In this document: piece by piece, positions 6,820 to 30,402 of the stretch
Layout: each line of letters begins with the position of its first letter
How positions within the stretch are numbered: the first letter of the stretch is position 1
Assembly (NCBI GenBank): GCA_947448745.1
Contig: CANFOQ010000011.1
Coordinates: 1 to 64,000, forward strand
Source: Comamonadaceae bacterium
GTDB taxonomy: Bacteria; Pseudomonadota; Gammaproteobacteria; Burkholderiales; Burkholderiaceae_C
DNA length: 64,000 bases
Direction of reading: 5' to 3'
Translations under genes and position numbers: made by a program
The notes under the pieces: generated by a model
Seen by the model: the letters and a program-made list of their open reading frames with translations, nothing else
Databases searched by the model: none
What the model was told of the DNA's origin: nothing

Positions 6820-8430
6820 TTACGCGGCCCAGCGGGCCAAGTCTTTCAGCAAGGTTTCGCGCATCTCGCGCTTCATCAATTTGCCGTTGGCGTTGCGCGG
6901 CAAGGGCGTGTGGCTGAGCGTGAAACTCTCGGGCACTTTTTCGCGCGACAAGCGGCTGCTGCAAAAGCGGCTGAGCTCGTCATCCGTGGCGTCTTGGCGC
7001 AGCGACACAAACGCATGCACCCGCTCGCCCAACACCGGGCAGGGCTTGGCAACGATGGCGCATTCGGCCACGGCGGGGTGTTCGTAAAGCGTGTTCTCCA
7101 CCTCGATGCAATAAATTTTGTAGCCGCCGCGGTTGAGCATGTCCTTTTTGCGGTCGAGGATCCGCACATAGCCCTCGGCGTCGATGCTGCCCATGTCGCC
7201 GGACTTCCAAAAACCATCGACAAATTCTTGGGATGTGGCCTCGGGGTTGTGCCAGTAACCGGCCACCACCATCGGGCCTTTGATCCAAATTTCGCCCATC
7301 TCACCAGCGGCCAGTTCGTGGCCGTCGTCATCCACCACTTTCATCTCGGCGCAGGGCACCGGCACGCCCACGGTGTCGTTGTGGGTTGCTGTTTCGCCCG
7401 GCGGCATCATGGTGGCGGGCGAGGTGGTTTCGGTCGCGCCATAGCAGTTCATCAGCACCAACTGCGGCAGCTTGTGGGCCAGCGCGTCGATGCTGGCCAC
7501 GGGCATCGGTGCGCCGCCATAAGCCCCCACGCGCCACGCGCTCAGGTCGAGCGTGGCGAACTGGTCTTTCAGCAGGCACAGGTTGTACATGGCCGGCACC
7601 ATCAGGCTGTGCGTCATGCGTTCGCGCACCGCCAAGTCCAAAAACAAAGGCGCTTTGAAGGCGGGCAAGATGACCAATTTGCCCGCGGCGTGCAGCAGGG
7701 TGGTGACCAGCGCCACCAGGCCGGTGACGTGGCTCAGCGGCACGGCGGCGATGCTGCAGTCCTGTGGCCCCAGGCCCATGCCGACTTGGAAATGCATGCA
7801 GGAATGCACCACGCCGAAGTGGCTGAGCATCGCGCCCTTGGGCCGCCCCGTGGTGCCCGAGGTGTACAAAATCACCACCGTGTCTTCTTCTTGCACCGGC
7901 GCGGCATGCGTCAGGGGCGCATCGGCCAACAGGCTGTCAAAGTCCAGTGCGTCGGGGCAGCCGTCAAAACTCACGCGCCATTGCAAACCCGGCAAGCTGT
8001 TTTTTTCAGGCAAGACAGCGTGCAATTCGGCGTCGTGCACCAACAGCCGTGCCCCGCAATGCTCAAGCATGTAGTGCAGGCCGGGTGTTTGTTCGCGAAT
8101 GCTCAAGGGCACGGTGATCGCGCCCAAGCGGGTGGCGGCCAGCAGGCACAGCACGAACTCGATGCGGTTGCTCAGCAGCAGCGCCACGCGGTCGCCGGCT
8201 TGCAGGCCCAGCGTTTGCCAGCCTGCCGCCAAGCGGCCCACCAGTTGGTCGAGAGCGAGGTAGGTCAGGCGCGTGTCGTTGCAGACCAGTGCCGTGCCCT
8301 GCGGGTTGCTCGCCACGGCGTTGTCAAGCAAGGCATGCAGGCTGCGCGGGCGCGGCGTGAAGCAGCGCAGGTTGCGCTGGAAATGCGTTTCAGGGGAGAT
8401 CGTCGGCCAGTGCATTGCAGCGCGTGTCAT
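6820..8430 (-). CDS. AMP-dependent acyl-CoA synthetase/ligase (ANL superfamily)
   Basis: The 536-residue ANL enzyme is complete. It has the P-loop-like ILYTSGTTGRPKGAM, the YGATETTSPATMMPPG core, the hinge SGDMGSIDAEGYVRILDRKKD, and the catalytic lysine region LPRNANGKLMKREM. It should activate a carboxylic acid as the acyl-AMP and transfer it to CoA. The acid cannot be named from sequence; medium/long-chain fatty or aromatic acids are possible. It lies 18 nt downstream of pckG on the same strand, so the two may share a transcript, although that pairing has no obvious pathway logic. Confidence 0.88.
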   Translation of the reverse strand: MTRAAMHWPTISPETHFQRNLRCFTPRPRSLHALLDNAVASNPQGTALVCNDTRLTYLALDQLVGRLAAGWQTLGLQAGDRVALLLSNRIEFVLCLLAATRLGAITVPLSIREQTPGLHYMLEHCGARLLVHDAELHAVLPEKNSLPGLQWRVSFDGCPDALDFDSLLADAPLTHAAPVQEEDTVVILYTSGTTGRPKGAMLSHFGVVHSCMHFQVGMGLGPQDCSIAAVPLSHVTGLVALVTTLLHAAGKLVILPAFKAPLFLDLAVRERMTHSLMVPAMYNLCLLKDQFATLDLSAWRVGAYGGAPMPVASIDALAHKLPQLVLMNCYGATETTSPATMMPPGETATHNDTVGVPVPCAEMKVVDDDGHELAAGEMGEIWIKGPMVVAGYWHNPEATSQEFVDGFWKSGDMGSIDAEGYVRILDRKKDMLNRGGYKIYCIEVENTLYEHPAVAECAIVAKPCPVLGERVHAFVSLRQDATDDELSRFCSSRLSREKVPESFTLSHTPLPRNANGKLMKREMRETLLKDLARWAA

Positions 8431-8448
8431 GGCAGCTGGCCGCGATCG

Positions 8449-10299
8449 TCAGGCCGCCAAGCGCTGGGCGATGGCGGCTTTGGTGGCGGGCAACTCGGGC
8501 GGCAAGTGGTGCGCGAGTTGCTCGAACAGCGCTTCGTGCAATTTCAACTCTTCCACCCAAGCGGCGTTGTCCACGTGCGTGACGGTGTTGAACTGCTCGG
8601 CGCTGAAGCTCAGGCCCGTCCAGTTCAATTCGTTGTAGTTGGGGCTGATGCCGAAGACGTTTTCAGCGCCTTTGGCGCCGCCTTCAATGCGGTCGATCAT
8701 CCATTTCAAAACACGCATGTTTTCACCGTAACCGGGCCAGACAAATTGGCCGTCTTCGCCTTTGCGGAACCAGTTGACGCAGTAAATGGCCGGTAACTTG
8801 GCGCCGCTGGCTTGCAACTGCTGGCCCAGCTTCAACCAGTGTTGGAAATAGTCGCTCATGTTGTAGCCCATGAAGGGCAGCATGGCGAAGGGGTCGCGGC
8901 GCACCACGCCTTGTTGGCCGGCCGCAGCAGCCGTGGTTTCCGAGCCCATGGTGGCGGCCATGTAGACGCCTTCCACCCAGTTGCGGGCTTCGGTGACCAG
9001 GGGCACGGTGGTCGAGCGGCGACCGCCAAAAATGAAGGCGTCGATGGTGACACCCGCGGGGTCGTCCCAGGCGCTGTCGAGGGCGGGGTTGTTGGTGGCG
9101 GCCACCGTGAAGCGGGCGTTCGGGTGTGCGGCTTTGGCGCCGGTTTCTTTGGCGATGGCCGGGGTCCAGTCTTGGCCTTGCCAGTCGATGCAATGCGCGG
9201 GCGCGTCGCTCATGCCTTCCCACCAAACATCGCCGTCGTCGGTCAGCGCCACGTTGGTGAAGATCACGTCGCGGTCCAGGCTGGCCATGCAGTTCGGGTT
9301 GGTCAAGGTGTTGGTGCCCGGGGCCACGCCAAAGTAACCGGCTTCGGGGTTGATGGCACGCAGGCGGCCGTCAGCACCTGGTTTGATCCAAGCGATGTCG
9401 TCACCGATGGTGGTGACTTTCCAGCCCGGCATGCCCGCGGGCGGGATCAGCATGGCGAAATTGGTTTTGCCACAGGCGCTGGGGAAGGCCGCGGCCACGT
9501 GGTATTTTTGGCCCTCGGGGTTGGTGACGCCCAGAATCAGCATGTGCTCGGCCAACCAGCCTTGGTCGCGGCCCATGTTGGAGGCGATGCGCAGTGCAAA
9601 GCATTTTTTGCCCAACAGCGCATTGCCGCCGTAGCCCGAGCCGTAAGACCAGATTTCGCGGGTCTCGGGGTAATGCACGATGTACTTGGTTTTGTTGCAC
9701 GGCCAGCTGACATCTTTGTCGCCTGCTTTCAAAGGCGCGCCCACGGTGTGCACGCAGGGCACGAACTCGCCGTGCTCGCCCAACACCTCATACACGGCTT
9801 GGCCCATGCGGGTCATGATCTTCATGTTGACCGCCACGTAGGCGCTGTCGGACAACTCGATACCGATGTGGGCGATCGGGCTGCCCAAGGGGCCCATGGA
9901 AAACGGCACCACGTACATGGTGCGACCAGCCATGCAGCCGTCAAAGAGCGGTTGTAGGGTTTGGCGCATCTCGGCTGGGGCCATCCAGTTGTTGGTCGGG
10001 CCGGCGTTTTCTTTGTGTTCTGAGCAGATGTAGGTGCGGTCTTCCACGCGGGCCACGTCCGAGGGGTCGGAGCAGGCCAAGAAGGAGTTGGGGCGCTTGG
10101 ACGGGCTGAGTTTTTTGAAGGTGCCCGCATCCACCAAGTCTTGGCAGAGCTGTTGGTATTCGGCCTGGCTGCCGTCGCACCAATGCACCGCGGCCGGTTT
10201 GCACAAGGCCACCATGTCGGCGACCCAAGCGATGAGTTTTTGGTTTTTCACGAACGATGGGGCAGTGAGCCCCGCGCCTGCATGGGCGGTGGTTGTCAT
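8449..10299 (-). CDS. pckG: GTP-type phosphoenolpyruvate carboxykinase
   Basis: The 616-residue protein has the GTP-PEPCK kinase loop [13 protein letters not shown], with downstream metal- and oxaloacetate-binding segments such as [13 protein letters not shown] and [17 protein letters not shown]. The enzyme interconverts oxaloacetate and phosphoenolpyruvate and is the main gluconeogenic entry point in this type of organism. ATG 10297-10299 is preceded by a good ribosome site (taggagact). A 12-bp hairpin sits in the leader at 10332-10358. Confidence 0.97.
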
Positions 10300-17787: not shown

Positions 17788-18054
17788 ATGCGAACCACCA
17801 TAGACTTGGATGATGACGTGCTGGCAGCGGCCAAAGCCTTGGCCAAAGCGGGTCAAACCACGGCTGGGCGCATCATTTCGGACACCATGCGCCGTGCCAT
17901 TCAACGTGGCTTGGCCGACCCGGCTTCCCGTCATGACGTGCTGACGGTGAAGGAAGCGCCAGCGGTTCACGGCTTCAAGCCCCTCATCTTGCCGGGGCAG
18001 AACATCGTCACCGCCGACATGGTGCGTGCCATCCGCGACGAACTGGGCGATTGA
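17788..18054 (+). CDS. vapB: VapB-type ribbon-helix-helix antitoxin
   Basis: This 88-residue protein starts MRTTIDLDDDVLAAAKALAK, a ribbon-helix-helix DNA-binding N-terminus, and ends with a flexible tail that would thread into the toxin. It should repress its own promoter through the palindrome at 17753-17778 and block the PIN toxin encoded next. Its stop overlaps the toxin start by one base (TGATG). Confidence 0.88.
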   Translation: MRTTIDLDDDVLAAAKALAKAGQTTAGRIISDTMRRAIQRGLADPASRHDVLTVKEAPAVHGFKPLILPGQNIVTADMVRAIRDELGD

Positions 18055-18482
18055 TGCGGGCCTTGTTGGACACCAGTGTGTTGATCGCCTTGCTGGACGC
18101 CAACCATGTGCACCACCGCTTGGCCACCACCTGGTTTCAATCACACGCAGACGGCTGGGCCAGTTGCCCCATCACCCTCAATGGCTGCATTCGCATCTTG
18201 TCGCAAGCCAATTACCCGAACCGATTGCCCATGCACGTTGTGGTGCAAGGCTTGCAAGAAGCCATGCAACACCCTATGCATGTGTTTTGGGCAGACGACA
18301 TTCACCCCTTGGACACAAACGGTATCAACTGGGGCCAAGTCATGCGCCCTGCGGACATCACCGATGCCTACCTGCTGGCCCTGGCTGTGAAAAACCAAGG
18401 ATGTTTGGTGACTTTGGACCAAGGCATCTCCTTGTCTTGGGCCATCGGCGCTGAAGCACAACATCAATATGCTGTGAAGTGA
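18054..18482 (+). CDS. vapC: VapC-type PIN-domain ribonuclease toxin
   Basis: The 142-residue PIN protein has the expected acidic residues: LLDTSVLIALLD at the N-terminus, the Asn/Glu-position segment around NGCIRILSQ, PADITDAYLLALA, and LVTLDQGIS near the end. VapC toxins cleave tRNA or rRNA at specific sites; the target here is unknown. One acidic position, usually Glu in this subgroup, appears as Cys or another residue in the NGCIRI stretch, so activity should not be assumed. ATG 18054 overlaps the vapB stop. Confidence 0.87.
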   Translation: MRALLDTSVLIALLDANHVHHRLATTWFQSHADGWASCPITLNGCIRILSQANYPNRLPMHVVVQGLQEAMQHPMHVFWADDIHPLDTNGINWGQVMRPADITDAYLLALAVKNQGCLVTLDQGISLSWAIGAEAQHQYAVK

Positions 18483-18628: not shown

Positions 18629-20482
18629 ATGGATCGTGTGAATTCAGGAGGGGTGAGGGCAAACCTGCGCCAAACAGCAGCCCATCGGCTGTGGCGAGGT
18701 TTGGGGCTGAGTCTGGGCTTGGCGCTATGCGCCTCGGCCTGGGCCAATGGCGATGTGGAAAAAAACATTGCCAACGAAAAAAACTGGGCCATGCAGGCCG
18801 GTGACATGGCCAACACGCGCTACAGCCGCTTGGGTCAAATCAACAAAGGCAATGTCGACAAGCTGCGCGTGGCCTGGAGCTTTTCCACGGGCGTGTTGCG
18901 CGGCCATGAAGGCTCGCCGCTGGTGATCGATGGCGTCATGTTCTTGCATTCACCGTTTCCCAACAAGGTGTTTGCCATCGACATCGACACCCAAAAAATC
19001 CTGTGGAAATACGAGCCCAAGCAAGACGCGGCTGTGATTCCCCAAATGTGTTGTGACACCGTCAACCGTGGCGTGGCCTACGCAGAAAACAAAGTCATCT
19101 TGCAACAGGCCGACAGCACCTTGGTGGCCTTGAACGCGAAAACCGGCAAAGTCGAGTGGAGCGTGAAAAACGGTGACGCCAAACTCGGCGCGGTCAACAC
19201 CAACGCCCCCCACATCTTCAAAGACAAAGTCATCACCGGCATCAGCGGTGGCGAATGGGGTGTGCGCGGTTTCATCGCCGCCTACAACCTGTCCGATGGC
19301 AAGCTGGCTTGGAAAGGCTACAGCGTCGGCCCTGACAGCGAAATGCTGATGGACCCGCAATCCACCATGACCTGGACCGACGGCAAGATGGCCCCTGTGG
19401 GCGCCAACTCGTCGCTGAAAACCTGGCAAGGCGACCAATGGAAGATTGGCGGCGGCACCACCTGGGGCTGGTACAGCTACGACAAAGCACTGAACCTCAT
19501 GTTCTATGGCACAGGCAACCCCTCCACCTGGAACCCGGCACAACGCCCCGGCGACAACAAATGGTCGATGAGCATCTTCGCCCGCGATGTGGACACCGGC
19601 AAAGTGAAATGGGTTTACCAAATGACGCCTTACGACGAATGGGACTTTGACGGCATCAATGAAATGATCCTGGCCGACATCGACGTCAAAGGCAAACCCA
19701 CCAAGGCCTTGGTGCACTTTGACCGCAACGGCTTCGCCTACACCATGAACCGTGTCACCGGCGAATTGTTGGTGGCCGAAAAATTCGACCCGAAAGTCAA
19801 CTGGGCGACCCACGTCGACATGAAAACCGGTCGTCCACAAGTGGTGGCGAAATACTCCACCGCGAAAAACGGACCCGACGTCAACACCAAAGGTGTTTGC
19901 CCAGCAGCCTTGGGTACCAAAGACCAACAACCCGCTTCCTTTGACCCGAACACCAAGTTGTTCTATGTGCCCACCAACCATGTGTGCATGGACTACGAAC
20001 CGTTCAAAGTGGAATACACCGCCGGTCAACCGTATGTGGGCGCCACCCTCTCGATGTTCCCCGCACCCGGCAGCCATGGCGGCATGGGCAACTACATCAC
20101 TTGGGACGCTGGCACAGGCAAGATCGTGCAATCCAAGGCTGAGAAATTCTCGGTCTGGAGTGGCTCTTTGAACACGGCGGGTGGCATCTCTTGCTATGGC
20201 ACCCTGGAGGGCTACCTCAAGTGCGTCGATGCGAAAGACATCAACAAAGAACTGTTCAAGTTCAAAACACCCTCGGGCATCATTGGCAATGTGTTCACCT
20301 ATGAACACAAAGGCAAGCAATACATGGGTGTCTTCTCTGGCATTGGTGGCTGGGCCGGTATCGGCATGGCCGCAGGCTTGGAAAAAGACAACGACGGCTT
20401 GGGTGCCGTGGGCGGCTACCGCGAGTTGAACCAATACACAGAATTGGGTGGCTCACTGACCGTCTTCACCTTGCCCAACTGA
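18629..20482 (+). CDS. xoxF: Lanthanide-dependent PQQ methanol dehydrogenase XoxF
   Basis: The 617-residue periplasmic quinoprotein has an N-terminal signal ([15 protein letters not shown]). The vicinal disulfide pair is at MCCDTVNRG (C141-C142). The catalytic Asp lies in [10 protein letters not shown] (D339), and a second Asp two residues on (D341) is the mark of XoxF enzymes that bind a rare-earth ion; calcium MxaF enzymes have Ala there. Propeller tryptophan-docking repeats are present. It oxidises methanol to formaldehyde or formate and passes electrons to a cytochrome c. xoxG and xoxJ follow. It is probably of the XoxF5 clade, which a tree would settle. Confidence 0.95.
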
Positions 20483-20559: not shown

Positions 20560-20937
20560 ATGAAAAAATTGTTGTGCATTGCTGTATGGCTGAGCAGTGG
20601 CCTGGCGTTGGCCGACTCACCGCTTTACACCGTGACCGACGGCTACAAAGTCGACGAAAACACCATGAAAGGCTTTCGAGCTTGGCGTGCTGCGGCCTGT
20701 GACCGCTGCCATGGCGCCAACCAAGAAGGCATGGTTGGACCGTCCTTGGTCAACAGCCTGAAAACCCTCACCAAAGAAGAATTCATCACCACCGTGCGCG
20801 ATGGCCGCTTGGACAAAGGCATGCAAAGTTTTGGCAACAACCAACAGGTGATGAGCAACATCGATCACCTCTACGCCTACCTCAAGGGCCGCTCGGACGG
20901 GGCCATCACCCGCGCCAAAGTGGAAGCCTTGCCATGA
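20560..20937 (+). CDS. xoxG: XoxG-like c-type cytochrome, electron acceptor of XoxF
   Basis: The 125-residue protein has a signal peptide (LCIAVWLSSGLALA) and a single haem-binding motif CDRCH at residues 47-51, with a possible axial Met near GMQSFGNN. It is the expected electron acceptor of XoxF in the periplasm. It is shorter than some XoxG proteins. ATG 20560 was chosen, and its stop overlaps the xoxJ start by 4 nt. Confidence 0.88.
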   Translation: MKKLLCIAVWLSSGLALADSPLYTVTDGYKVDENTMKGFRAWRAAACDRCHGANQEGMVGPSLVNSLKTLTKEEFITTVRDGRLDKGMQSFGNNQQVMSNIDHLYAYLKGRSDGAITRAKVEALP

Positions 20938-21794
20938 CACTGTGGCGGTTGTGGGCAGGGTTGTGGGCAGTGCTGGTCACGGCGACCAGCGTTGCAGCCA
21001 CGCCCACTCTGGCCAACGGGCAAAGCACGTTGCGGGTCTGCCAAGACCCCAACAACATGCCGTTCTCCAACAGCCAAGGCCAAGGCATCGAAAACAAGTT
21101 GGCCGAGCTCTTGGGTCAAGCCTGGGGCGTGCCGGTCAGTTACTACGCGTTCCCGCAACGCATGGGCTTCATCCGCAACACCTTGCGCTACAAATTGCCC
21201 GGCGAAGACTACCCCTGCGACATCGTCATGGGCGTGCCTGCGGGCTTTGACCAAGTGGCCACCACCGCCAGCTATTACCGCTCCGCCTACGCCTTGGTGT
21301 TTCCCTTGGGCAAAAACCTGGACGCGGTGCACAGCGTGGAAGATTTTTTGAACACCAAGCCGGCGCTGTTGCACAAACTGCGCATGGGCGTCTATGACCG
21401 CTCACCCGCTTCGGCCTGGTTGAGTCGGCATGGTTTGGAAGACGCCGGTGTGCCCTACAAACTGTTGAACGCCGATCCCAACCAATACCCGGGTGAAATC
21501 ATCGAGCGTGATTTGGCCAAGGGGCAGATTGATGTGGCCATTGTGTGGGGGCCAATGGCGGCCTATTTTGCGCACCGCGTGCAGTCGCCCAGTTTGCGCG
21601 TCATCCCCATGCGCTCTGAGCCCGGCGTGACCTTGGAATTTGACATGGCCATGGGTGTGCGCCACGGCGAGCCGGCCTGGAAAGCCCAGGTGAATGCCGT
21701 GTTGCAAAGCCATCAAGCACACATCCAGTCGATCTTGCAAACCTTTGACGTGCCTTTGTTGGCCCTGCCCCATGACACCGCACACACCCCTTGA
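20934..21794 (+). CDS. xoxJ: XoxJ-like periplasmic binding protein
   Basis: The 286-residue protein has a signal peptide (WAGLWAVLVTATSVAAT) and a type-2 periplasmic binding fold: LRVCQDPNNMPFSN at the start, DIVMGVPAGFDQVATTASYYRSAYAL in the middle, and GQIDVAIVWGPMAAYF later. This is the quinoprotein-dehydrogenase-associated family known as XoxJ or MxaJ, thought to help mature or activate the dehydrogenase. The ATG overlaps the xoxG stop (ATGA). Confidence 0.88.
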   Translation: MTLWRLWAGLWAVLVTATSVAATPTLANGQSTLRVCQDPNNMPFSNSQGQGIENKLAELLGQAWGVPVSYYAFPQRMGFIRNTLRYKLPGEDYPCDIVMGVPAGFDQVATTASYYRSAYALVFPLGKNLDAVHSVEDFLNTKPALLHKLRMGVYDRSPASAWLSRHGLEDAGVPYKLLNADPNQYPGEIIERDLAKGQIDVAIVWGPMAAYFAHRVQSPSLRVIPMRSEPGVTLEFDMAMGVRHGEPAWKAQVNAVLQSHQAHIQSILQTFDVPLLALPHDTAHTP

Positions 21795-21816
21795 ACCAAA
21801 AGGCCAGCACCGTTCA

Positions 21817-22494
21817 ATGCAGCCACGTTGGCAGCATCGGTTTTTGTGCGCCATGGTGTGCCTCTGCGTTGGTGCGCCATGGCAAGCCCATGCTGTCGAT
21901 GATTTTTCGGCCGCCGAAACCCAGTTGTTCATGCAAGACCATTTGCGCCCCTTGAAACTGCCCAGCCGCATCCACTACCAGTTTCACAAGTCGGGCAGCT
22001 TGGAGCCTGGGTTTGACGACCGTGTGCAATTGGGCGTGAAGGCCAAACCCCAAGGGCAGTGCTGTCACACCGACGTGCAGTTTTTGTCGAAGGAGCGGCG
22101 CTTGCAATTGCCCGAGCCCGAGGAGGCCAAAGGCAACCCGGTCATTTTGTATTTCCTAGAACGAGACATCCGAGACATGCAACGCCTCACCCATGGTCAA
22201 AGCAATTACTTTCGCACCCGCATTCGCAAAGCCCTGTACCAAACCGCCCAAGAACGACAAGTGCGGCTGCAATACAAAGGCCGCTGGGTGAACGCCCAAG
22301 AGTTTGAAATCGCGCCGTTTGTGGACGACCCGTTGCGCAACCGCTTTGCCCAACTCGCTGACAAACGCTACAGCTTCACCTTGTCGGATGCCGTGCCGGG
22401 TGGATTGGTGGCGATCCGCAGTTGGGTGCCGGTTGCAAGCAACGCCAGCGCTGTGTGGCAAGAGCAGTTGCTGTTGGAAGGAGCGTCGCTGTGA
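21817..22494 (+). CDS. Exported protein of unknown function in the xox cluster
   Basis: The 225-residue protein has a signal peptide (FLCAMVCLCVGAPWQAHA) and no domain that I recognise. Notable features are an adjacent Cys pair in GQCCHTDVQFLSKE and a charged C-terminal half containing RLTHGQSNYFRTRIRKALYQ. ATG 21817 gives a good signal peptide; the open frame extends upstream into xoxJ but that part is implausible. It is 22 nt after xoxJ and overlaps the next start (GTGA), so it belongs to the xox transcript. A role in dehydrogenase maturation is inferred from position alone. Confidence 0.7.
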   Translation: MQPRWQHRFLCAMVCLCVGAPWQAHAVDDFSAAETQLFMQDHLRPLKLPSRIHYQFHKSGSLEPGFDDRVQLGVKAKPQGQCCHTDVQFLSKERRLQLPEPEEAKGNPVILYFLERDIRDMQRLTHGQSNYFRTRIRKALYQTAQERQVRLQYKGRWVNAQEFEIAPFVDDPLRNRFAQLADKRYSFTLSDAVPGGLVAIRSWVPVASNASAVWQEQLLLEGASL

Positions 22495-22847
22495 ACCCCC
22501 AAACCCTGGCCACAACGGGGCTGCTGCTGGTTGGGCTGCTCAGCCCCTTGGCCCAAGCCAACGACTTTCCCACTGCCGAGCGGGTGTTGGCCGTGCAGTC
22601 TTGCATGCGCCAGCACGAGGGCCCATTCCACGAGATGCTGCACAAGTGTTCGTGCGCCTTGGATACCTTGGCCGGCCAACTCAGCTTTGCCGAGTACGTG
22701 GAGCTCAGCACGATTGCCAACGCCATGACGATCGCGGGTGAACGTGGCAATGGCATGCGCGACAACGAATCATTGAAGGCGCCGCTGGCGCGTTTCAAAC
22801 GCATGAACCAAGAGGCCAACAAGGCCTGTTTTCTCAACCCACCTTGA
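22491..22847 (+). CDS. Small exported Cys-containing protein in the xox cluster
   Basis: The 118-residue product starts at GTG 22491 inside the stop of the previous gene. The signal peptide is LATTGLLLVGLLSPLAQA. The mature part has cysteines in VQSCMRQHEG, HKCSCALD and NKACFL, so two disulfides are possible. The layout resembles small helical proteins with a CxC-type centre and no haem motif. No family is recognised. Overlap with its neighbours on both sides supports co-expression with xoxF. Confidence 0.65.
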   Translation: MNPQTLATTGLLLVGLLSPLAQANDFPTAERVLAVQSCMRQHEGPFHEMLHKCSCALDTLAGQLSFAEYVELSTIANAMTIAGERGNGMRDNESLKAPLARFKRMNQEANKACFLNPP

Positions 22848-22856
22848 AAGCCAACC

Positions 22857-24524
22857 ATGCTGTACCGCTTGCTTCGTTGTTGCTTGTGGGTTGTGATCTG
22901 GGCTGCTGTGCCCGTGGCGCAGGCGGCACCTGTTTCGTTTCAACCCGAGGACGACCCGCAAGCCAGCGTGGTCTGGCAGCGTTTGCGGCAAAGCTTGTTT
23001 GGCGAGCGGCCCATCCAAGCGGCCACGCCCCAACTGCTCAGCCTCAAGGTGCCGCCACGTGCCTTGGAGTCGGCGTTTGTGCCGGTGCAAGTGATCGCCG
23101 GTCCCGCCTCGGGGTCGGTGCACACCCTGTACCTGATCGCCGACGCCAACCCCTCGCCTTTGGCCGCCAAGGTGCAGTTTCAACTGCTGGGCATGCCCAT
23201 CCATTTGGAAACCCGCATCCGCATTGACGCCTTCACCCACATCCGGGTGGTGGCCGAAACCACCGATGGCCAGTTGTTCATGGCCACCCGATTCACCAAG
23301 GCCACGGGCGGCTGCACCGCACCGGCCACCATCGATGTGCAAGCAGCGTTGCAACGCTTGGGCGGCATGCATTTCAACATCGACCACCAAGCGCAAGCGC
23401 AACGTGTGCGTTGGCGCATGGACCACCCCAACCACTCGGGCTTGGTGATGGACCAACTGAGCCGGCTCAACATCCCCGCGCACTATGTGCAGCAGATTGA
23501 GGTGCGCTTGAATGACCAACCGGTGTTGCTGGCCGATGTGGATTTTTCGCTCAGCGAAAACCCCAGCTTGCAGTTCAGTTTGCCAGGCCACCCCGAGGGC
23601 GTGTTGCAGGTTCAAGTGCAGGACTCGCAAGGACTGCGTTTTCAGGGGCAGCAAAGCCTGGGCCCAGCCCAAGTCCAAGCTGTCGCGCCAGGTGTGTATG
23701 CCGTGCTGGGAGATGCGCAACAGCAACAAGGCAACGCGGGCTTCATCGTCGGGCCGCAAGGCGTCATGGTGATAGACAGCGGCCACTCGTGGCGGCAAGG
23801 CCAGGCTTTGTTGGACACGGTGCGCAGCATCACCCCCTTGCCGATCCAGTTGCTGTTGCTGACCCATGCCCGGGGTGAATTCATTTTTGGCGCAGGGCCT
23901 TTTCAAGCGCAGGGCATACCGGTGCACATGCACCAAGACGCCGCCCGCTTGGTGCAAGCACGTTGCGCCACTTGTTTGCAGCAGTTGCAACAACGCTTTG
24001 GCGCCGAGGCCATGGCGGGCACCGCGTTGCCCCATGCCGATGTTTTGCTCACCCACAGCACCCGCATGCAGCACACCGGCCGACAGGTGCAGGTGCTGGC
24101 CGCTGGCCACAGCAGTTCACCCGGCGCTTTGGCCGTGTTGGACGAGCAAAGCGGGGCCATCTTCGCCGGATCATGGTTGGACGTGCAGCACATTCCCGAT
24201 TTGCGTGACGCGCAAGTCACGCCGTGGCTGAACGCCTTGGCCCCGTGGTTGAAAGACGATGAGCGCTCGTGGATACCGGGCCATGGGCCGGTGGCCAGTG
24301 GTCACCAGGCGCTGCAATTGCTGGACTATTTACAAGCCTTGCAAAGCTGTGTGCAGCAGCATGTGGCGCAAGGCACCTCGCTCATCGACATGGACAAAGC
24401 CTGCCCGCAACCCGCGTTTGCGCAGTGGGCGTTTTACGACAGCCAGCACCCGCGCAATGTGGTGCGCTTGTATTTGCAAACCGAGCGCGAGGCGTTGTTC
24501 TCCACCGACATGGCCAACCCTTGA
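22857..24524 (+). CDS. Fusion of SoxYZ-like carrier and metallo-beta-lactamase fold (quinoprotein relay system)
   Basis: The 555-residue exported protein has two parts. Residues 30-265 match the quinoprotein-associated SoxYZ-like carrier: RQSLFGERPI, then the sulfur-carrier-like GGC at residues 151-153 (TGGCTAPA), then a SoxZ-like domain with MDHPNHSGLVMDQL and SLSENPSLQF. Residues 280-500 are a metallo-beta-lactamase fold of the relay-system hydrolase type. Its first metal motif reads THARGEFIFG (H337) in place of HxHxDH, while H418 (GHSSS) and H476 (PGHGP) remain, so normal zinc binding is doubtful. These two parts are normally separate genes. The role is unproven. Confidence 0.82.
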   Translation: MLYRLLRCCLWVVIWAAVPVAQAAPVSFQPEDDPQASVVWQRLRQSLFGERPIQAATPQLLSLKVPPRALESAFVPVQVIAGPASGSVHTLYLIADANPSPLAAKVQFQLLGMPIHLETRIRIDAFTHIRVVAETTDGQLFMATRFTKATGGCTAPATIDVQAALQRLGGMHFNIDHQAQAQRVRWRMDHPNHSGLVMDQLSRLNIPAHYVQQIEVRLNDQPVLLADVDFSLSENPSLQFSLPGHPEGVLQVQVQDSQGLRFQGQQSLGPAQVQAVAPGVYAVLGDAQQQQGNAGFIVGPQGVMVIDSGHSWRQGQALLDTVRSITPLPIQLLLLTHARGEFIFGAGPFQAQGIPVHMHQDAARLVQARCATCLQQLQQRFGAEAMAGTALPHADVLLTHSTRMQHTGRQVQVLAAGHSSSPGALAVLDEQSGAIFAGSWLDVQHIPDLRDAQVTPWLNALAPWLKDDERSWIPGHGPVASGHQALQLLDYLQALQSCVQQHVAQGTSLIDMDKACPQPAFAQWAFYDSQHPRNVVRLYLQTEREALFSTDMANP

Positions 24525-24528
24525 AGCC

Positions 24529-25167
24529 TCAGGTGCCACCCACATAGGGGTTGCTGCGCCGCTCGCGGCCAAACGTGCTCTCAGGCCCATGGCCAGGAAT
24601 GAACACCGTGTCGTCGCCCATCGGCCACAAGCGCTGCGTGATGCTGTCAAGCAAGTCTTGGTGGTTGCCTTGCGGGAAATCGGTGCGGCCAATGCTGCCG
24701 GCAAACAGCACATCGCCGACAAACGCACGTTTCAATTCGGCCGAATAAAACACCACATGGCCGGGCGTGTGGCCGGGGCAATGCCGCACGTGCAAAGTGT
24801 GCTGGCCCAAGGTGACCGTGTCGCCATCGGTCAACCAGCGTGTCGGTTTGAAGGGGCGTGCCGGTGGAAAACCATAACTCTCAGCGGCTTCTTTCAAACC
24901 ATCAATCCAAAACTGATCGCCGGGGTGCGGACCGATGATGGGCAGGTTCAAGCTTTCGGCCAAATCGGCGGTGGCGCCCGCATGGTCCAAGTGCGCATGG
25001 GTGATCCAGATGGCCACCAGCGTCACGCCGAGTTGCTTGCAAGCACGTTGCAATAAATCCAAGTCACCACCCGGGTCGATGATGGCCGCTGTCATGCCCT
25101 CGTCCTCCCAGACCACAGAGCAGTTTTGTTGAAAGGGCGTGACGGGGATGGTTTCGTAGTGGAGCAT
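24529..25167 (-). CDS. MBL-fold hydrolase, glyoxalase II-like (YcbL type)
   Basis: The 212-residue protein has a complete metal site: THAHLDH, the later CPGHTPGH, FVGDVLFAGSIGRTD and IPGHGPESTFG. Proteins of this size and pattern are YcbL/GloB-like thioester hydrolases. It is cytoplasmic (no signal). It is convergent with the fusion gene, with only 4 nt between them, and its intact motif makes the contrast with the degenerate one next door clear. Confidence 0.9.
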   Translation of the reverse strand: MLHYETIPVTPFQQNCSVVWEDEGMTAAIIDPGGDLDLLQRACKQLGVTLVAIWITHAHLDHAGATADLAESLNLPIIGPHPGDQFWIDGLKEAAESYGFPPARPFKPTRWLTDGDTVTLGQHTLHVRHCPGHTPGHVVFYSAELKRAFVGDVLFAGSIGRTDFPQGNHQDLLDSITQRLWPMGDDTVFIPGHGPESTFGRERRSNPYVGGT

Positions 25168-25545
25168 GGTGTTCAGGCAAGGGCTTGATAAAAATGTTTA
25201 GAACTTGAGGTCACAGTTAGAAACTCGCACAAATCTTATGCTATTGCGACATTGCCAAAGTGTTGAATTTGTCCGGTTTATAGGCGATTTACGGCCTCCG
25301 GACAGAGCGAAATGGCCTTACTCCGAACACTGATAACAAAGTATAGAACTGGGATTTAGGGCATTCCGGCTCGCGACCTTGCGCGTGAATTTCCCAAAAA
25401 CTCTGCGAAGCCTCGAAATTGGTCCGCAGTTCCTCGCTATTACTGTTGGTTTGCGAGGGACGGCGATGCAGCGGTTGCCGTCATTCGGCGTGGAATACTG
25501 GACTCACCCTTTTGGATTAGGTCAGGACATTGATGTCGTGGTCTG
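25168..25545. other. Non-coding stretch at the core/accessory boundary
   Basis: These 378 bases follow the MBL gene start and hold no gene that I can support. A 66-residue open frame at 25379-25579 lacks a ribosome site and any recognisable pattern, and it runs into the inverted repeat at 25546. Base composition becomes more AT-rich here. Confidence 0.5.
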
Positions 25546-25615
25546 TAATCCTCCCCTTTTGCAAGGGACGCAGAAGTAGAAACGTTACGCAGCCACCCAA
25601 CCATCAGTTATTCAA

Positions 25616-25671
25616 AGTTGCACTTCGTGCTTGAATCCAACAAGGCAGATTCAAGTTCGAAGCGCAACGCG
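25616..25671. repeat. IS30-type end sequences facing each other
   Basis: GTTGCACTTCGTGCTTGAATC (about 25616-25636) and GATTCAAGTTCGAAGCGCAAC (about 25648-25668) are imperfect complements separated by about 11 nt. The right one is the 3' edge of an IS30-family transposase relic. The arrangement suggests the junction of two element ends. Confidence 0.55.
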
Positions 25672-25776
25672 CTTGAGTGATTGATGAAAGACCTCTGCGG
25701 GTGTTTTGAATTCAAATCTTTTTCTTGGTCTGTTATTCAATCTGTTTTGAATCATCCTAATTTCCTCATCAGTGAC
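25651..25776 (-). pseudogene. IS30-family transposase, C-terminal relic
   Basis: On the minus strand, 41 codons read VTDEEIRMIQNRLNNRPRKR, then FEFKTPAEVFHQSLKRVALR and T before the stop. The NNRPRK...FKTP.EVF pattern is the conserved C-terminus of IS30-family DDE transposases. Everything upstream of this piece is missing, and the preceding sequence is unrelated. A shorter copy of the same tail occurs at 28505-28543. Confidence 0.8.
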
Positions 25777-25821
25777 CCCAATGAGTGGACAAATTATATT
25801 TTCAAAATCTGAATTGGAGAA

Positions 25822-25971
25822 ATGCAAATGCAAAGAGCCAAATACACACCTGAGTTCAAAGAAGCGTCCGTACGGCAAGTTATCGACAACGGGCACTCAG
25901 TAATCGATGTTGCCAAGAGGCTTGGCATTGGAGATCCGATGCATAGTAGCCAGCAAGAGCTTTACAAATGA
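25822..25971 (+). pseudogene. IS3-family OrfA transposase, N-terminal relic
   Basis: Starting at ATG 25822, after the ribosome site ttggaga, the frame encodes KYTPEFKEASVRQVIDNGHS and VIDVAKRLGI. That is the helix-turn-helix start of IS3/IS911-type OrfA. The similarity then breaks off and the frame ends after 49 codons. No OrfB is nearby, so this is a broken copy. Confidence 0.8.
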
Positions 25972-26198
25972 CCATGAATCACCGCAACCGCTCTTGGCGC
26001 GCGAACTGGACACCCGAAAGGGTGTCGCGCACAGCTACTCACAAATCTGGCGTGACTGCCCGCGTTTCAGTCTCGCTTACCGATCCAAGCAAAGACCGGA
26101 TCACGCTAGAAAATACCGCCACGCTTGACCTGACGCGCTGGGATTTGGGGGCGCTGACGCAGGAGGCCGTCGAGCTGTGGATGGATGGACAATTTTGA
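25968..26198 (+). CDS. Possible 76-residue protein of unknown function inside the inverted-repeat segment
   Basis: The open frame encodes a polar protein (HKSGVTARVSVSLTDPSKDR, then LTRWDLGALTQEAVELWMDG). Its composition looks protein-like, but the ribosome site is weak. A hairpin, GACACCC-gaaa-GGGTGTC at 26009-26026, falls within it. No family is recognised. It may be element cargo or a relic. Confidence 0.35.
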   Translation: MTMNHRNRSWRANWTPERVSRTATHKSGVTARVSVSLTDPSKDRITLENTATLDLTRWDLGALTQEAVELWMDGQF

Positions 26199-26301
26199 TG
26201 AACAACAAAATCTCGATCAGCAGCAGGCCATGGCTGCATAACATTTCTACTTCTGCGGCCCTTGCAAAAGGGGGGATTACCGTGCAACCGTTACGTGGAG
26301 G

Positions 26302-26808
26302 ATGGTCGTGAACAGCTTGATGAAACCAGCATTATTTGAATCACATAAATTACGAGTGATTAGTCTTCTAATTACCTCGGTTGCGATTCTAGGTTGGTGT
26401 ATTCCATCACAGGCACATTGGGAATACACAGGAGTTGCTGATCCACAGACGAAACAGCTACTTCGAATCGCCACAAGCAAAAGCCTTACTTGGGAAGGCG
26501 TTCTGATGGTTCGACTTTCTCCAGAGGGGGGAGCAAACATAGTGCTTGGCACAAAAGGCGAAATTATTTGTGCTGATCCATGTACCGTGAGAATTGCTTT
26601 TGATGGCAAGGATGGTGGTATGCGAGAGGCGCGTTATCCAGGCAGCATAAAGAACATGCTCTACCTCTCTCCTAGAGAAACCACTTTAAATATGATTAAA
26701 AGTTCCAAGAAGATTGAGGTAGAAATAAAGACTTTGGATTTTGGTTGGCGGGTCATGCAATTTGATACGGCAAACTTTGATCTTGATCACCTCATTCGTG
26801 TGCAATGA
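26302..26808 (+). CDS. Exported hypothetical protein
   Basis: The roughly 168-residue protein has a hydrophobic export signal (VISLLITSVAILGWCIPSQA) and a beta-rich mature part with two close cysteines (GEIICADPCTVRIAFDGKDG). It is not a recognised family. ATG 26302 directly follows ggagg; GTG 26308 has better spacing to that site and may be the true start. Codon use is AT-richer than in the core genes, in keeping with acquired DNA. Confidence 0.6.
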   Translation: MVVNSLMKPALFESHKLRVISLLITSVAILGWCIPSQAHWEYTGVADPQTKQLLRIATSKSLTWEGVLMVRLSPEGGANIVLGTKGEIICADPCTVRIAFDGKDGGMREARYPGSIKNMLYLSPRETTLNMIKSSKKIEVEIKTLDFGWRVMQFDTANFDLDHLIRVQ

Positions 26809-26826
26809 TCCTTAAACAGCGACACT

Positions 26827-27327
26827 ATGCCTGATTTCAGTATAGATTTCGCGGCGAAACTTTCAGAAGTAGCTGAAACATTGAACCATGAAATCGACCA
26901 AGACTTTGAATCCGGTAGGACTATCCTGTACCTCAGTCGGTTGTCAATAGAAATCGCATTGAAATCAATGCTTGAACAAGCTGGCGTGCCTGAACAGGTT
27001 ATTCGAAAACGGTCACATAATCTTCATGCACTTCTAAGTGATCTCTCAAATTGCGAAGTAGAGATCGACATTGAACCACAGGTAAAAGCATGGGTGACAG
27101 CAACCGCTCTTAGAGCAATCACCATCCAGCAGGACAACGGTGTTATAACCGTTGGCGAAATAATTGAGGCTGAAGTACAAGGTGCCTCTAAATATCCGAC
27201 TCGAATTCGCTATGGCAGCAGCGTTGTGGACTTCTCTCCGCAGTTGGTTGCAGTATGTTCAAAAAAAGTAGTGGAGTGGGTGAAGTTGCACTGGCATACG
27301 GTACGAACTAGGAGGAAGACCTTATAG
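26827..27327 (+). CDS. HEPN-like helical protein
   Basis: The 166-residue cytoplasmic protein has a helical N-terminal two-thirds, with LYLSRLSIEIALKSMLEQ followed by RKRSHNLHALLSDL. That layout is seen in HEPN-domain proteins, in which an Rx4-6H-type motif can be an RNase centre; here RKRSH fits loosely. HEPN proteins often act in toxin or defence systems, but no nucleotidyltransferase partner is adjacent. It follows the exported protein after 18 nt. The assignment is tentative. Confidence 0.5.
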   Translation: MPDFSIDFAAKLSEVAETLNHEIDQDFESGRTILYLSRLSIEIALKSMLEQAGVPEQVIRKRSHNLHALLSDLSNCEVEIDIEPQVKAWVTATALRAITIQQDNGVITVGEIIEAEVQGASKYPTRIRYGSSVVDFSPQLVAVCSKKVVEWVKLHWHTVRTRRKTL

Positions 27328-27416
27328 CCATCTACCGTTTACTCAAAGCCAAAGCGGTATTTTCAATTTAGTCGTGACGGACACAAGTATTGAGTCTGAA
27401 GTCAGCCCCGTCTAAC

Positions 27417-27836
27417 TTACCAAACATTCCACCATTTTTTTCCCCGCTTACAAAGCTCAGAGTGAACCGGTTCCCAATGGCCATTAGGAACGACAGGCAA
27501 ATCTTTATATTCTTTGTGGTACGTCTCTTTACCATCTACTCCGACAATTGTGTACTCGGAAATTTGGAGAGTTCTGTCCTCGCATAGTGCCCCCATCAGT
27601 ACTCGGAAAGTTACACCATCTTTTTCTTTCCATTGAACCCAAGCTTTGATCCAACGCTTCCCCTTATTCACCCCATCATCGACGGTAAGTGCCTCAAATG
27701 TTTTTGTATCGACCTGATAACCGGGCGAAAGTATTTGCCATCTGTCTCCTATCGGCTGAGCAACTGCAAAACCAAACCATGCCCATCCAAGCAAAGCCGC
27801 AAATATGGCCATGATCTTTGAGTTTTTTAGTGGCAT
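27417..27836 (-). CDS. Exported hypothetical protein, possibly surface-adhesin E-like
   Basis: The 139-residue protein has a signal peptide (IMAIFAALLGWAWFGFAVAQ) and a short mature domain ending GHWEPVHSELCKRGKKWWNV. The sequence WQILSPGYQVDTKTF...VWVQWKEKDG-like layout recalls small adhesin-E-type proteins of betaproteobacteria, but the match is weak. It is one of several short exported proteins on the minus strand here. Confidence 0.55.
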   Translation of the reverse strand: MPLKNSKIMAIFAALLGWAWFGFAVAQPIGDRWQILSPGYQVDTKTFEALTVDDGVNKGKRWIKAWVQWKEKDGVTFRVLMGALCEDRTLQISEYTIVGVDGKETYHKEYKDLPVVPNGHWEPVHSELCKRGKKWWNVW

Positions 27837-27847
27837 AAATTAAGTCC

Positions 27848-28111
27848 TCATGTTGCGACTGGTAATCTGAAAAATTTGTTAAGGCCAAGAGCGACGACAC
27901 TTTTGGCGAAACAAGTCACACTCGCTCTGTCAAGTTCTTTTTCTTTAATAGGCCAAAATGTGCACTTATCCCAACCATGAATTCTTAATATGTCAATATT
28001 GAAACGCCCTGCATGTTTCATAATATTTCCAAAAAATAACAGCTGCAAAGTTGGCCAAGCCCAGCTCGATATTGAAAGGGTTGTGAAAAATAGTGCTATT
28101 ATGAATTTCAT
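27848..28111 (-). CDS. Small exported hypothetical protein
   Basis: From ATG 28109-28111 the frame encodes 87 residues with a hydrophobic N-terminus (FIIALFFTTLSISSWA) that looks like a signal peptide, then a basic mature part with two cysteines. No family is recognised. It lies between two other small exported proteins on the same strand. The start is uncertain because the open frame continues upstream. Confidence 0.4.
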   Translation of the reverse strand: MKFIIALFFTTLSISSWAWPTLQLLFFGNIMKHAGRFNIDILRIHGWDKCTFWPIKEKELDRASVTCFAKSVVALGLNKFFRLPVAT

Positions 28112-28131
28112 GAAGTTGAATAACTCTAAAA

Positions 28132-28479
28132 TTACCGCTTGTCGTAACCCATATTTGACATGCAACCATACACATATCCAAATCTACTGTAGAAATTACT
28201 ATCTTCTGTTTGTCCTTCGAGAATTATTGAAGGATTGGTTCGGCAATTAATACTTGTGGAGGATCCAGAACAGTATGTAGAACCAGTAATTATCTGCGTG
28301 GGATTTTTTATAAAATTAGGAGGGTATAAAGTTAACGCTTTATCGCTGCATCGATTAAGATTTGACTGAGTCGTCAATGGATCATCCCCTGCGCGAGTCC
28401 AGGAGCTAGCAAGAAATGGTGAGCTTGCGCAGGCGGTCAATGTAACGCAGCAAATTAAAATATTTAATTTTTTTATCAT
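28132..28479 (-). CDS. Small lipoprotein, unknown function
   Basis: The 115-residue protein begins MIKKLNILICCVTLTACASS, with the lipobox LTAC. The mature part has four further cysteines (NRCSDK, TYCSGSS, NCRTNP, YGCMSN), probably forming disulfides. ATG 28477-28479 was chosen because further upstream the frame enters the IS30 tail relic. Function unknown. Confidence 0.6.
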   Translation of the reverse strand: MIKKLNILICCVTLTACASSPFLASSWTRAGDDPLTTQSNLNRCSDKALTLYPPNFIKNPTQIITGSTYCSGSSTSINCRTNPSIILEGQTEDSNFYSRFGYVYGCMSNMGYDKR

Positions 28480-28504
28480 TGTGAACTTTCTATTGGTGGT
28501 GGAT

Positions 28505-28543
28505 TCAAGTTCGAAGCGCAACGCGCTTTAGTGATTGATGAAA
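28505..28543 (-). pseudogene. Second IS30 transposase tail relic
   Basis: The minus strand encodes FHQSLKRVALRT and a stop, identical in protein to the end of the relic at 25651-25776 and nearly identical in DNA. The two tails are in the same orientation and enclose the 2.8-kb stretch of small exported genes, which points to past IS30 activity around this segment. Confidence 0.75.
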
Positions 28544-28653
28544 CTGACCTGCCCCCTTTTGCCATACTACTCATTAGTTGGAAGTCCGGGTTAGAGCCAA
28601 CCCGACAAATGTCATCAATACAACCCATTTCAACATCCGCTCATACCTTTAAA

Positions 28654-29109
28654 TTAAAATCCTTTTTCAATCTTTTCGCATTGGTACGAAGATTCATTTA
28701 GAGCGCCACCAACATGGTCATTCAAGTAAGCGACAAGCGTATTTCGGTTTATTTTTAGCAAGCCTCTTGTAAATAGCGGAATTGCAGTTACCTCACTATG
28801 AGTTTCTGTAACGATTGAATACTCCCAAGGCTCATACGGACTCGGTGCATAAATCTTCATTCCACGTTCATCTTTCTCTTTATCAGCCTGCTGATAATTC
28901 CGCGACCGCATTTGATTAAATTTCTCCCAACTCTGCCTTTGTAAATGGTCATCAACGAAAATTTTTCTATTACCAAAATCAATCTCAAGATAGACCTTGT
29001 TTGCTCCTTCTCCAATTTGTTTGCACTGAAGAACGACTAAGTTGTTTTGTGCTTGTGCGCTACCAAGAGAGGCCATGGCTAAAAAAAACCAAAAGAACGA
29101 TTTATTCAT
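28654..29109 (-). CDS. Exported hypothetical protein
   Basis: The 151-residue protein has a clear signal peptide (FFWFFLAMASLGSAQAQ) and a beta-rich mature part with one Cys near each end (VLQCKQ, YQCEKI), probably joined. No family is recognised. ATG 29107-29109 gives the best signal peptide. It has an AT-rich upstream region of about 200 bases (29110-29316) that should carry its promoter. Confidence 0.6.
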   Translation of the reverse strand: MNKSFFWFFLAMASLGSAQAQNNLVVLQCKQIGEGANKVYLEIDFGNRKIFVDDHLQRQSWEKFNQMRSRNYQQADKEKDERGMKIYAPSPYEPWEYSIVTETHSEVTAIPLFTRGLLKINRNTLVAYLNDHVGGALNESSYQCEKIEKGF

Positions 29110-29316
29110 AAACCTATGCCTCCAAAAGAGCCGCAAACCTATACAAATGATAATTTTGTAGTGTCAATCAAGCCTAAATTTTACTATTTTTTGTACAATA
29201 AATGATATTTTGTGTTGTATTTTTAATTAAAATATGTACAGGTGGACCAATCTAGCTGATCTAGGAAAAAACCGCCACTTCTGAACCTGTAGGGTGTAGA
29301 TCGATAAGGCCAACTA

Positions 29317-30402
29317 ATGCTGAACAAAAACTTTTGGATGGTTCGCACCGCAGAGCGCGGTTACCCCTTTGAAGACTTTAGAGAAAAGTCGCTGATCAGC
29401 ATCGGCTGGGGTAGGGTTGGCGTGACGATGCGATTCTTAATCTTTGTCTTAACTGCTATTTCAATTTGGGCTAATGCGTTAGCGGCAGAGCCCAATAATC
29501 AGCAAGTTCTTTTGGCGCAGGCCAATTTTCAAGAACACACTGCGCAAAAGATGGTGGAAATTGCGAACTCGAAACGGGACAGATCAAGCGACCCAGACTA
29601 TATTGCGGCCAAGGAAGGGGTTGTCAATACTTTACTGAGCTTTGTCGTTTTCTGCTATCTCTATCTCGGCTATACGTACATCACCAACCGCCCTACGGGC
29701 TTTGGCAATGGTGCTATCTCAACAAGACACAAGACACCAAAGCACGAAATGATAAAAATACCGGGCGGTACTTTTGAAATGGGGACAGATATTTTTCGAA
29801 ACACAAAGCCCGTAAGACAAGTAACAGTGCGCGCCTTCATGCTGAGCAATATCGTTGTAACTCAAGAGCAGTGGAGTTCCTTGATGAATGGGGATAACCC
29901 AAGCAGCAATCAAGAAGGTGGAGATCATCCCGTCAATTGTGTTAGTTGGCATGAGGCGCAAGCCTACATAACAAAGCTGAACGAGAAAACAGGAAAGCAG
30001 TACCGACTCCCAACAGAGGCGGAATGGGAATATGCGGCCAGAGCTGGTAGCGGTGGTCGATGGTGCTTTGGTGATGAGGAGTCGCAGCTTGGCGATTTTG
30101 CGTGGTATCAGGCGAATTACCACTATATCCGGCGCAAGGTTGGGCAGAAGAAGCCGAACTCATTTGCACTCTACGACATGCACGGTCTCATACAAGAGTG
30201 GGTTCAAGATGTGTGGCATTCAAACTATAAAGATGCCCCGCATGATGGCACTGCGCGGACGGCGGGTAATCAAACCAAGCGTGTAATTCGAGGAGGGCCG
30301 CCGTCAGGGGACGCAAAGAGCCTTTGCTCAGCATCGCGAAATCATGCTTCAGCTGAAATGAAGGCTAGTGATATTGGTTTTCGAATCGCTCATTCTTGCT
30401 AA
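29317..30402 (+). CDS. SUMF1/formylglycine-generating-type domain protein with a chimeric start
   Basis: Residues 140-361 form a sulfatase-modifying-factor fold: IPGGTFEMGTDIF, VTQEQWSSLM, HPVNCVSWHEAQAYITKLNE, RLPTEAEWEYAARAG and the ending SDIGFRIA. The catalytic Cys pair of true FGEs is not apparent, so this is probably a non-catalytic relative. Before it are a signal-like segment (FLIFVLTAISIWANALAA) and a membrane helix. The first 35 residues (NFWMVRTAERGYPFEDF) look instead like the start of an Mrr-type restriction-enzyme N-domain fused in frame. The native start may be ATG 29428. Confidence 0.78.
   Translation: MLNKNFWMVRTAERGYPFEDFREKSLISIGWGRVGVTMRFLIFVLTAISIWANALAAEPNNQQVLLAQANFQEHTAQKMVEIANSKRDRSSDPDYIAAKEGVVNTLLSFVVFCYLYLGYTYITNRPTGFGNGAISTRHKTPKHEMIKIPGGTFEMGTDIFRNTKPVRQVTVRAFMLSNIVVTQEQWSSLMNGDNPSSNQEGGDHPVNCVSWHEAQAYITKLNEKTGKQYRLPTEAEWEYAARAGSGGRWCFGDEESQLGDFAWYQANYHYIRRKVGQKKPNSFALYDMHGLIQEWVQDVWHSNYKDAPHDGTARTAGNQTKRVIRGGPPSGDAKSLCSASRNHASAEMKASDIGFRIAHSC

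Follow-up and report, generated by a model that had tools for sequence, protein, structure and literature searches.

The window analysed here is the whole stretch of 64,000 nucleotides, and at 22857–24524 on its forward strand it holds a fused gene, whose uninterrupted frame of 555 residues joins a SoxYZ-like carrier to a metallo-beta-lactamase (MBL) domain of the branch that we call type A; the assignment draws on the open frame, on family matches and on fused orthologues in two other genomes. A preliminary description of the locus had already proposed one frame of this length with this pairing and a GGC motif at residues 151–153, and the translation, the Pfam matches and the score of the carrier half against the NCBIfam family TIGR04557 (residues 40–263, 226.2 bits, cut-off 140) bear it out. 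Reading from the N-terminus, with all features on the same (+) strand, the protein has a probable signal peptide, recognised by eye in the translation (residues 1–23, ending in AQA; 22857–22925), a SoxY-like part (residues 45–153; 22989–23315; PF13501, 84.1 bits) whose last residue is the carrier cysteine of GGC, C153 (codon 23313–23315), and a SoxZ-like part (residues 180–265; 23394–23651; PF08770, 75.5 bits). Ser or Thr directly follows GGC in all 65 of the 65 carrier rows aligned. Six residues lie between the SoxZ match and the MBL match, the latter covering residues 272–547 (23670–24497); in three unfused pairs, the MBL starts with a leader-like sequence of its own, which is gone in the fused protein. 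The longest overlapping frame on the opposite strand runs from 22770 to 24110 (446 residues).

Homology of the second half to the MBL superfamily is established by a Lactamase_B match (PF00753, residues 290–438, 30.5 bits, cut-off 22.7). The protein scores 410 bits against our type A profile, with the fused protein itself among the 15 rows behind that profile, versus 143 bits against the type B profile; together with the CxxC found in the alignment of MBL relatives (C370 and C373, in RCATCL; 23964–23975), this best match places it within our definition of type A. At the position of the dinuclear metal motif HxHxDH the alignments have HARGEF instead (residues 337–342; 23865–23882), and two candidate metal ligands are retained further on, H418 (24108–24110; H in 20/38 type A rows, W in 11/38) and H476 (24282–24284; H in 27/38); the preliminary description had given this motif and both histidine positions. 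All three fused proteins have a second cysteine pair, C498 and C516 (the first and last codons of 24348–24404); in type A as a whole, C498 occurs in 3/38 rows and C516 in 4/38. Once the presumed leader is set aside, the cysteines of each fused protein number five and match in position: C153, C370, C373, C498 and C516. The MBL half stays below the cut-offs of both relay hydrolase families, with 150.0 bits against TIGR04559 (relay hydrolase 2, cut-off 280) and 133.3 bits against TIGR04558 (relay hydrolase 1, cut-off 300), and the fused protein is likewise below those of TIGR04488 and TIGR04490.

The fused gene is the last of a xoxF–cytochrome–xoxJ cluster on the forward strand. The cluster comprises a XoxF-type PQQ methanol dehydrogenase (18629–20482; TIGR03075, 711.8 bits), whose best solved relative is the lanthanide-dependent XoxF 6dam (921.8 bits); a cytochrome c (20560–20937; PF13442, 47 bits), called XoxG by position and below the MoxG cut-off (24.8 versus 147.8 bits); a XoxJ-like periplasmic binding protein (20934–21794; TIGR03871, 273 bits, cut-off 212.15); and two conserved proteins that match no Pfam or NCBIfam model. 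The first of these (21694–22494), whose true start is probably later than 21694, recurs in other xox clusters (alignment of 21 rows), and the second, a small protein (22422–22847), has C61, C76, C78 and C136 in all 24 aligned rows. The window's XoxF has adjacent cysteines in common with 6dam, and its WDFDG aligns to WDYDG of 6dam, the Asp of which we take to be the lanthanide-binding residue and a mark of lanthanide use. The xoxF–xoxG–xoxJ order, with XoxG assigned by position only, and this extra Asp are those of a lanthanide XoxF cluster, and the carrier has the setting typical of TIGR04557, beside a PQQ dehydrogenase gene on the same strand.

In the genome from which the window comes (G000; 96.24% complete, PQQ dehydrogenase present) our search gave no PqqC match and no PqqE match above cut-off; PQQ may be taken up, or its genes may lie in a missing piece. 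One of the other two genomes with the fusion, G015, has PqqC. On the 3′ side of the fused gene lies a glyoxalase-II-like MBL with THAHLDH (24529–25167, reverse strand), whose best model is GloB (98.8 bits, below its cut-off of 200.8). Just past the cluster the G+C fraction drops from 0.62 to 0.39–0.48 (window positions 25000–30000), and an ORF at 25651–25896 on the reverse strand resembles, by eye, the end of a transposase. Directly before xoxF, two small overlapping ORFs (17788–18482) have, again by eye, the look of a VapBC-type toxin–antitoxin pair.

The carrier half resembles the TIGR04557 carrier PP_2677 of Pseudomonas putida, a SoxYZ-like carrier according to PMC12997753, in that a single chain contains both SoxY and SoxZ, has a GGC arm and is encoded next to a PQQ alcohol dehydrogenase, but here the chain runs on into an MBL domain. 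The MBL half is homologous across its full length to the SoxH-like relay hydrolases 2 and 1, which occur in the same gene neighbourhoods (comparison of the type A and type B profiles gives a probability of 100 at 25% identity); unlike them, it has CxxC, has no HxHxDH and falls short of both family cut-offs. PP_2678 is named as a quinoprotein relay zinc metallohydrolase in PMC12997753, and soxH is named in the gene cluster around xoxF5 in PMC5934484. The GGC carrier fold, with its SoxY and SoxZ Pfam domains, is also common to thiosulfate-oxidising SoxYZ, in which, unlike in the window, soxY and soxZ are separate genes. An instance is contig C24 of the same genome: soxY and soxZ each have an open frame of their own there, and the genes around them are of Sox type as judged by eye, so that the contig was rejected as a broken relay locus. 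Beside them stands an open SoxH-like MBL (L058:7690–8292) without about 71 residues; the missing segment holds HxHxDH in the close relatives L039, L035 and L033, and its absence is either a real deletion or an assembly collapse.

Looking for the same pairing in other genomes, a check that the preliminary description had suggested, revealed two further open fusions. Among the matches listed for 199 related genomes, at least 162 of which have some match at E ≤ 0.001, a single frame matches both halves of the query in three genomes, all of one genus, namely our own, G007 and G015, and the fused proteins of the latter two are both 73% identical to the window's. The fusion is present in 3/84 genomes of the genus, beside xoxF every time. 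It was also met as contig CANGHG010000027.1 of a Comamonadaceae MAG, apparently the same contig as the G007 copy. A SoxYZ-type match at E ≤ 1e-20 occurs in 53 of the 84 genomes and exceeds the carrier cut-off in five: the three strong carriers (229–241 bits) are the fused ones, and the remaining two matches (140–142 bits) have a stop inside, which is what separate soxY and soxZ genes would give. We also searched even samples of the family (399 genomes) and the phylum (398 genomes), taking the best three candidates at most per genome, with G007 and G015 absent from both lists; matches at E ≤ 1e-50 were found in 35 genomes of the first and at E ≤ 1e-25 in 32 of the second, and both halves were spanned in our own genome only.

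Plasmid records match the query in 123 cases, and in 25 of these at least 80% of it is covered at one place. The best of them, pAZKH of Azoarcus sp. KH32C, gave a single-piece match and was considered as a further fusion; this was ruled out, as the carrier (7917–8750) and the MBL (8751–9704) are two adjacent genes in the same frame. By annotation, its xox cluster (AZKH_RS24110 to RS24075) has the same order as the window's, with a PQQ dehydrogenase, cytochrome c, XoxJ-like protein, two hypotheticals, carrier and MBL, but there the last two are separate and a relay hydrolase 2 (387.6 bits) stands in front. Viral contigs gave no match to the type A profile and, for the type B profile, two loci (33% identity across 55 residues) in which a follow-up scan matched nothing.

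As the source is a draft genome of 67 contigs, an assembly error or a decaying gene might be suspected behind the fusion. The same open fusion in G007 and G015, in proteins that differ from the window's at more than a quarter of their residues, speaks against an assembly error, and between the three fused genes dN/dS is 0.11–0.18 for the carrier half and 0.17–0.19 for the MBL half (three pairs), ratios that are rough given dS values of 0.69–1.38. Purifying selection acts on both halves, and error or decay as the origin of the gene is extremely improbable. The fusion is real, lineage-specific and rare.

To place the MBL half among its relatives, we aligned 119 MBL rows, leaving out two matches too short to align, and drew type A as the 38 rows with CxxC near residue 370, so that the motif is present in 38/38 by definition; the other 81 rows have no CxxC over residues 355–385. 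HxHxD occurs in 0/38 type A rows and HxHxDH in 74/81 of the others, and among the columns kept in at least 36/38 type A rows, C370 and C373 alone are common to no outsider. Four type A rows (L046, L052, L072 and L150) have HxHxE and look like partly eroded sites. Seven rows outside type A (L036, L037, L038, L040, L092, L103 and L059) are also without HxHxD, showing altered metal motifs in other MBL branches too. When scored with profiles built from 15 (type A) and 13 (type B) of the aligned rows, 37/38 type A rows show a lead of 146 bits or more for type A, against no more than 59 bits in the 81 outsiders; the remaining row, L150, has CxxC, yet leans towards type A by only 63 bits, hardly above the outsiders. 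In a quick tree without the motif columns a branch with a support of 87, short of the starred level, sets 37/38 apart and L150 falls elsewhere, and a tree holding all 38 together scores better than this free tree (p-AU 0.831).

The three fused rows sit inside a larger starred group (23 rows, all type A), and only 3/38 type A frames, the fused ones, also contain a carrier; from these two observations we infer that HxHxD was lost before the fusion. An origin of HARGEF together with the fusion is ruled out by the same counts, with HxHxD kept in no type A row and only three of the 38 fused. The zinc site had been called eroded in the preliminary description, which holds as far as the absence of HxHxDH goes, but the erosion is not tied to the fusion.

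Curated families do not separate this CxxC-bearing branch of relay MBLs. Two free-standing members, L074 (TIGR04559, 207.1 bits; TIGR04558, 180.6 bits) and L125 (180.6 and 145.1 bits, respectively), are below both cut-offs, the best E-values in the 15-row type A alignment (1.7e-65 and 4.7e-68) also suggest scores below them, and the pAZKH copy is annotated merely as ‘MBL fold metallo-hydrolase’. The type A sequences belong either to genomes of the same order as the window or to one of two plasmids, pAZKH and Caballeronia M1242, and the loci fetched from outside that order gave no type A.

The usual order in Burkholderiaceae relatives is xoxF, cytochrome, xoxJ, two unknowns, in some a type B hydrolase, then carrier, type A MBL and second carrier; relative to it, the cluster in the window is without a type B hydrolase and without a second carrier. 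That second SoxYZ-like carrier, with an SGGCSAPPN-type arm, directly follows the type A MBL in many of the xox clusters (L071–L089, e.g. L074:9159–9986), and locus L074 has three more genes in its gaps, for an HtrA-like protease, a YncE-like propeller and an SRPBCC protein. Of the 35 fetched stretches that include a type A gene, 31 (counting the three with the fusion) contain a carrier of at least 60 bits, and a further one, L060, has a carrier of 51 bits; the stretches had been gathered with the fused query, a search that favours loci holding both carrier and MBL. Family scores, these neighbourhoods, pAZKH and the XoxF match agree with the earlier statement that the parts are otherwise separate genes beside PQQ dehydrogenases. 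When the three genomes with the fusion, of which G007 is 69% complete, were searched with the type B profile, the fused gene was the best match in each (133–145 bits) and anything else reached at most 87.4 bits. Judged by its gene content, the compact cluster seems to have the fused gene as its whole carrier–MBL set.

We propose, with a probability of about 40%, that the fused protein is a carrier plus an MBL-fold module that lost its dinuclear zinc site before the fusion, that its CxxC cysteines are probably working residues exchanging thiol or sulfur groups with Cys153, and that it supports the lanthanide-type methanol dehydrogenase. Two neighbouring genes of a xoxF cluster would have fused to give one protein, probably exported, at a time when, according to the tree, the dinuclear site was presumably already gone. 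Type A proteins would work through the CxxC: the groups exchanged between C370/C373 and Cys153 would be thiol, disulfide or sulfane sulfur, and the exchange would run in cis in the fused protein and in trans in most species; this chemistry is what the sequence comparisons lead us to infer. Less certainly, the exchange may mature or protect the dehydrogenase, for instance its adjacent-cysteine disulfide or its PQQ. The proposal is supported by the absence of HxHxD from every CxxC row against its presence in 74/81 others, the profile scores, the tree, the carrier company of type A genes, pAZKH, the dN/dS values, the matching cysteines and the suggestions made in PMC12997753, where disulfide formation, cofactor stabilisation or PQQ protection are put forward for the Pseudomonas relay proteins. 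Several observations weigh against it. A CxxC can also form a structural disulfide or act in metal binding; the pattern of motifs may go back to one evolutionary event and not to 38 independent ones; L150 carries the CxxC with a weak type A score and a different place on the free tree; and the relatives were found with the fused query, with the bias noted above. Two AlphaFold2 models, each made with a two-row alignment from the window and L041 and of very low confidence, place C370 and C373 within a long helix and not at its start (mean pLDDT 35.6 for the full fused protein and 42.4 for the MBL half), and, according to PMC12997753, disruption of the Pseudomonas relay genes had minimal effects, under rare-earth-deficient conditions.

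The preliminary description had offered two roles for the MBL half, a hydrolase acting in cis or a scaffold, and we keep both as rivals; the cysteine-based module was missing from its list, the CxxC of the 38 rows having been overlooked. Four candidate metal ligands remain in the fused protein, which speaks against the CxxC proposal and would allow the MBL half to be a metal enzyme still, with one metal on H337, E341, H418 and H476 hydrolysing a Cys153-bound group in cis. Position 341 is E or D in 38/38 type A rows, and H337, E/D341, H418 and H476 are jointly kept in 17/23 rows of the Burkholderiaceae clade, the window included; a single-metal site in that clade is possible on the strength of these alignments, and the retention counts against a simple ‘dead enzyme’ reading. 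All four are kept in 0/15 of the other type A rows, however, R339 and F342 stand where the classic motif has two more histidines, position 439, an Asp in 80/81 outsiders, is Asp in only 1/38 type A rows, and the CxxC is left unexplained, so that we regard a surviving hydrolase as unlikely. A scaffold that binds the dehydrogenase, the cytochrome or the carrier, with C370–C373 and, in the fused proteins, C498–C516 as structural disulfides, would account for the absence of HxHxD throughout type A and for purifying selection without a known active site, and a stabilising disulfide would suit the extra cysteine pair. Nothing obliges a pure scaffold to retain residues of the old active-site loop, yet E/D341 (38/38) and H337 (H in 32/38) are still there, and we consider this role rather unlikely.

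On the role of SoxYZ-like carriers and their MBL partners beside PQQ dehydrogenases, the one discussion that we found, in PMC12997753, offers competing guesses. The fusion names a partner for the carrier, and the CxxC names two candidate residues. Taken further, an MBL-fold clade in the window's order may have swapped its zinc site for a redox-active or sulfur-transferring CxxC and become the partner enzyme of the SoxYZ-like carrier, with the fused gene as a natural one-chain version and the pair acting on the lanthanide methanol dehydrogenase or on its PQQ, where sulfur groups would be loaded, unloaded or repaired; this wider idea is tentative and somewhat doubtful, and if true it would answer what the ‘quinoprotein relay’ does. 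Our results suggest that one branch of the relay MBLs is misnamed by the term ‘zinc metallohydrolase’. The parts of the relay system are already known; their fusion and the CxxC-bearing branch are described in none of the titles and abstract openings found in the open-licence PubMed Central literature. The small four-cysteine protein encoded at 22422–22847 is possibly part of the same thiol chemistry.
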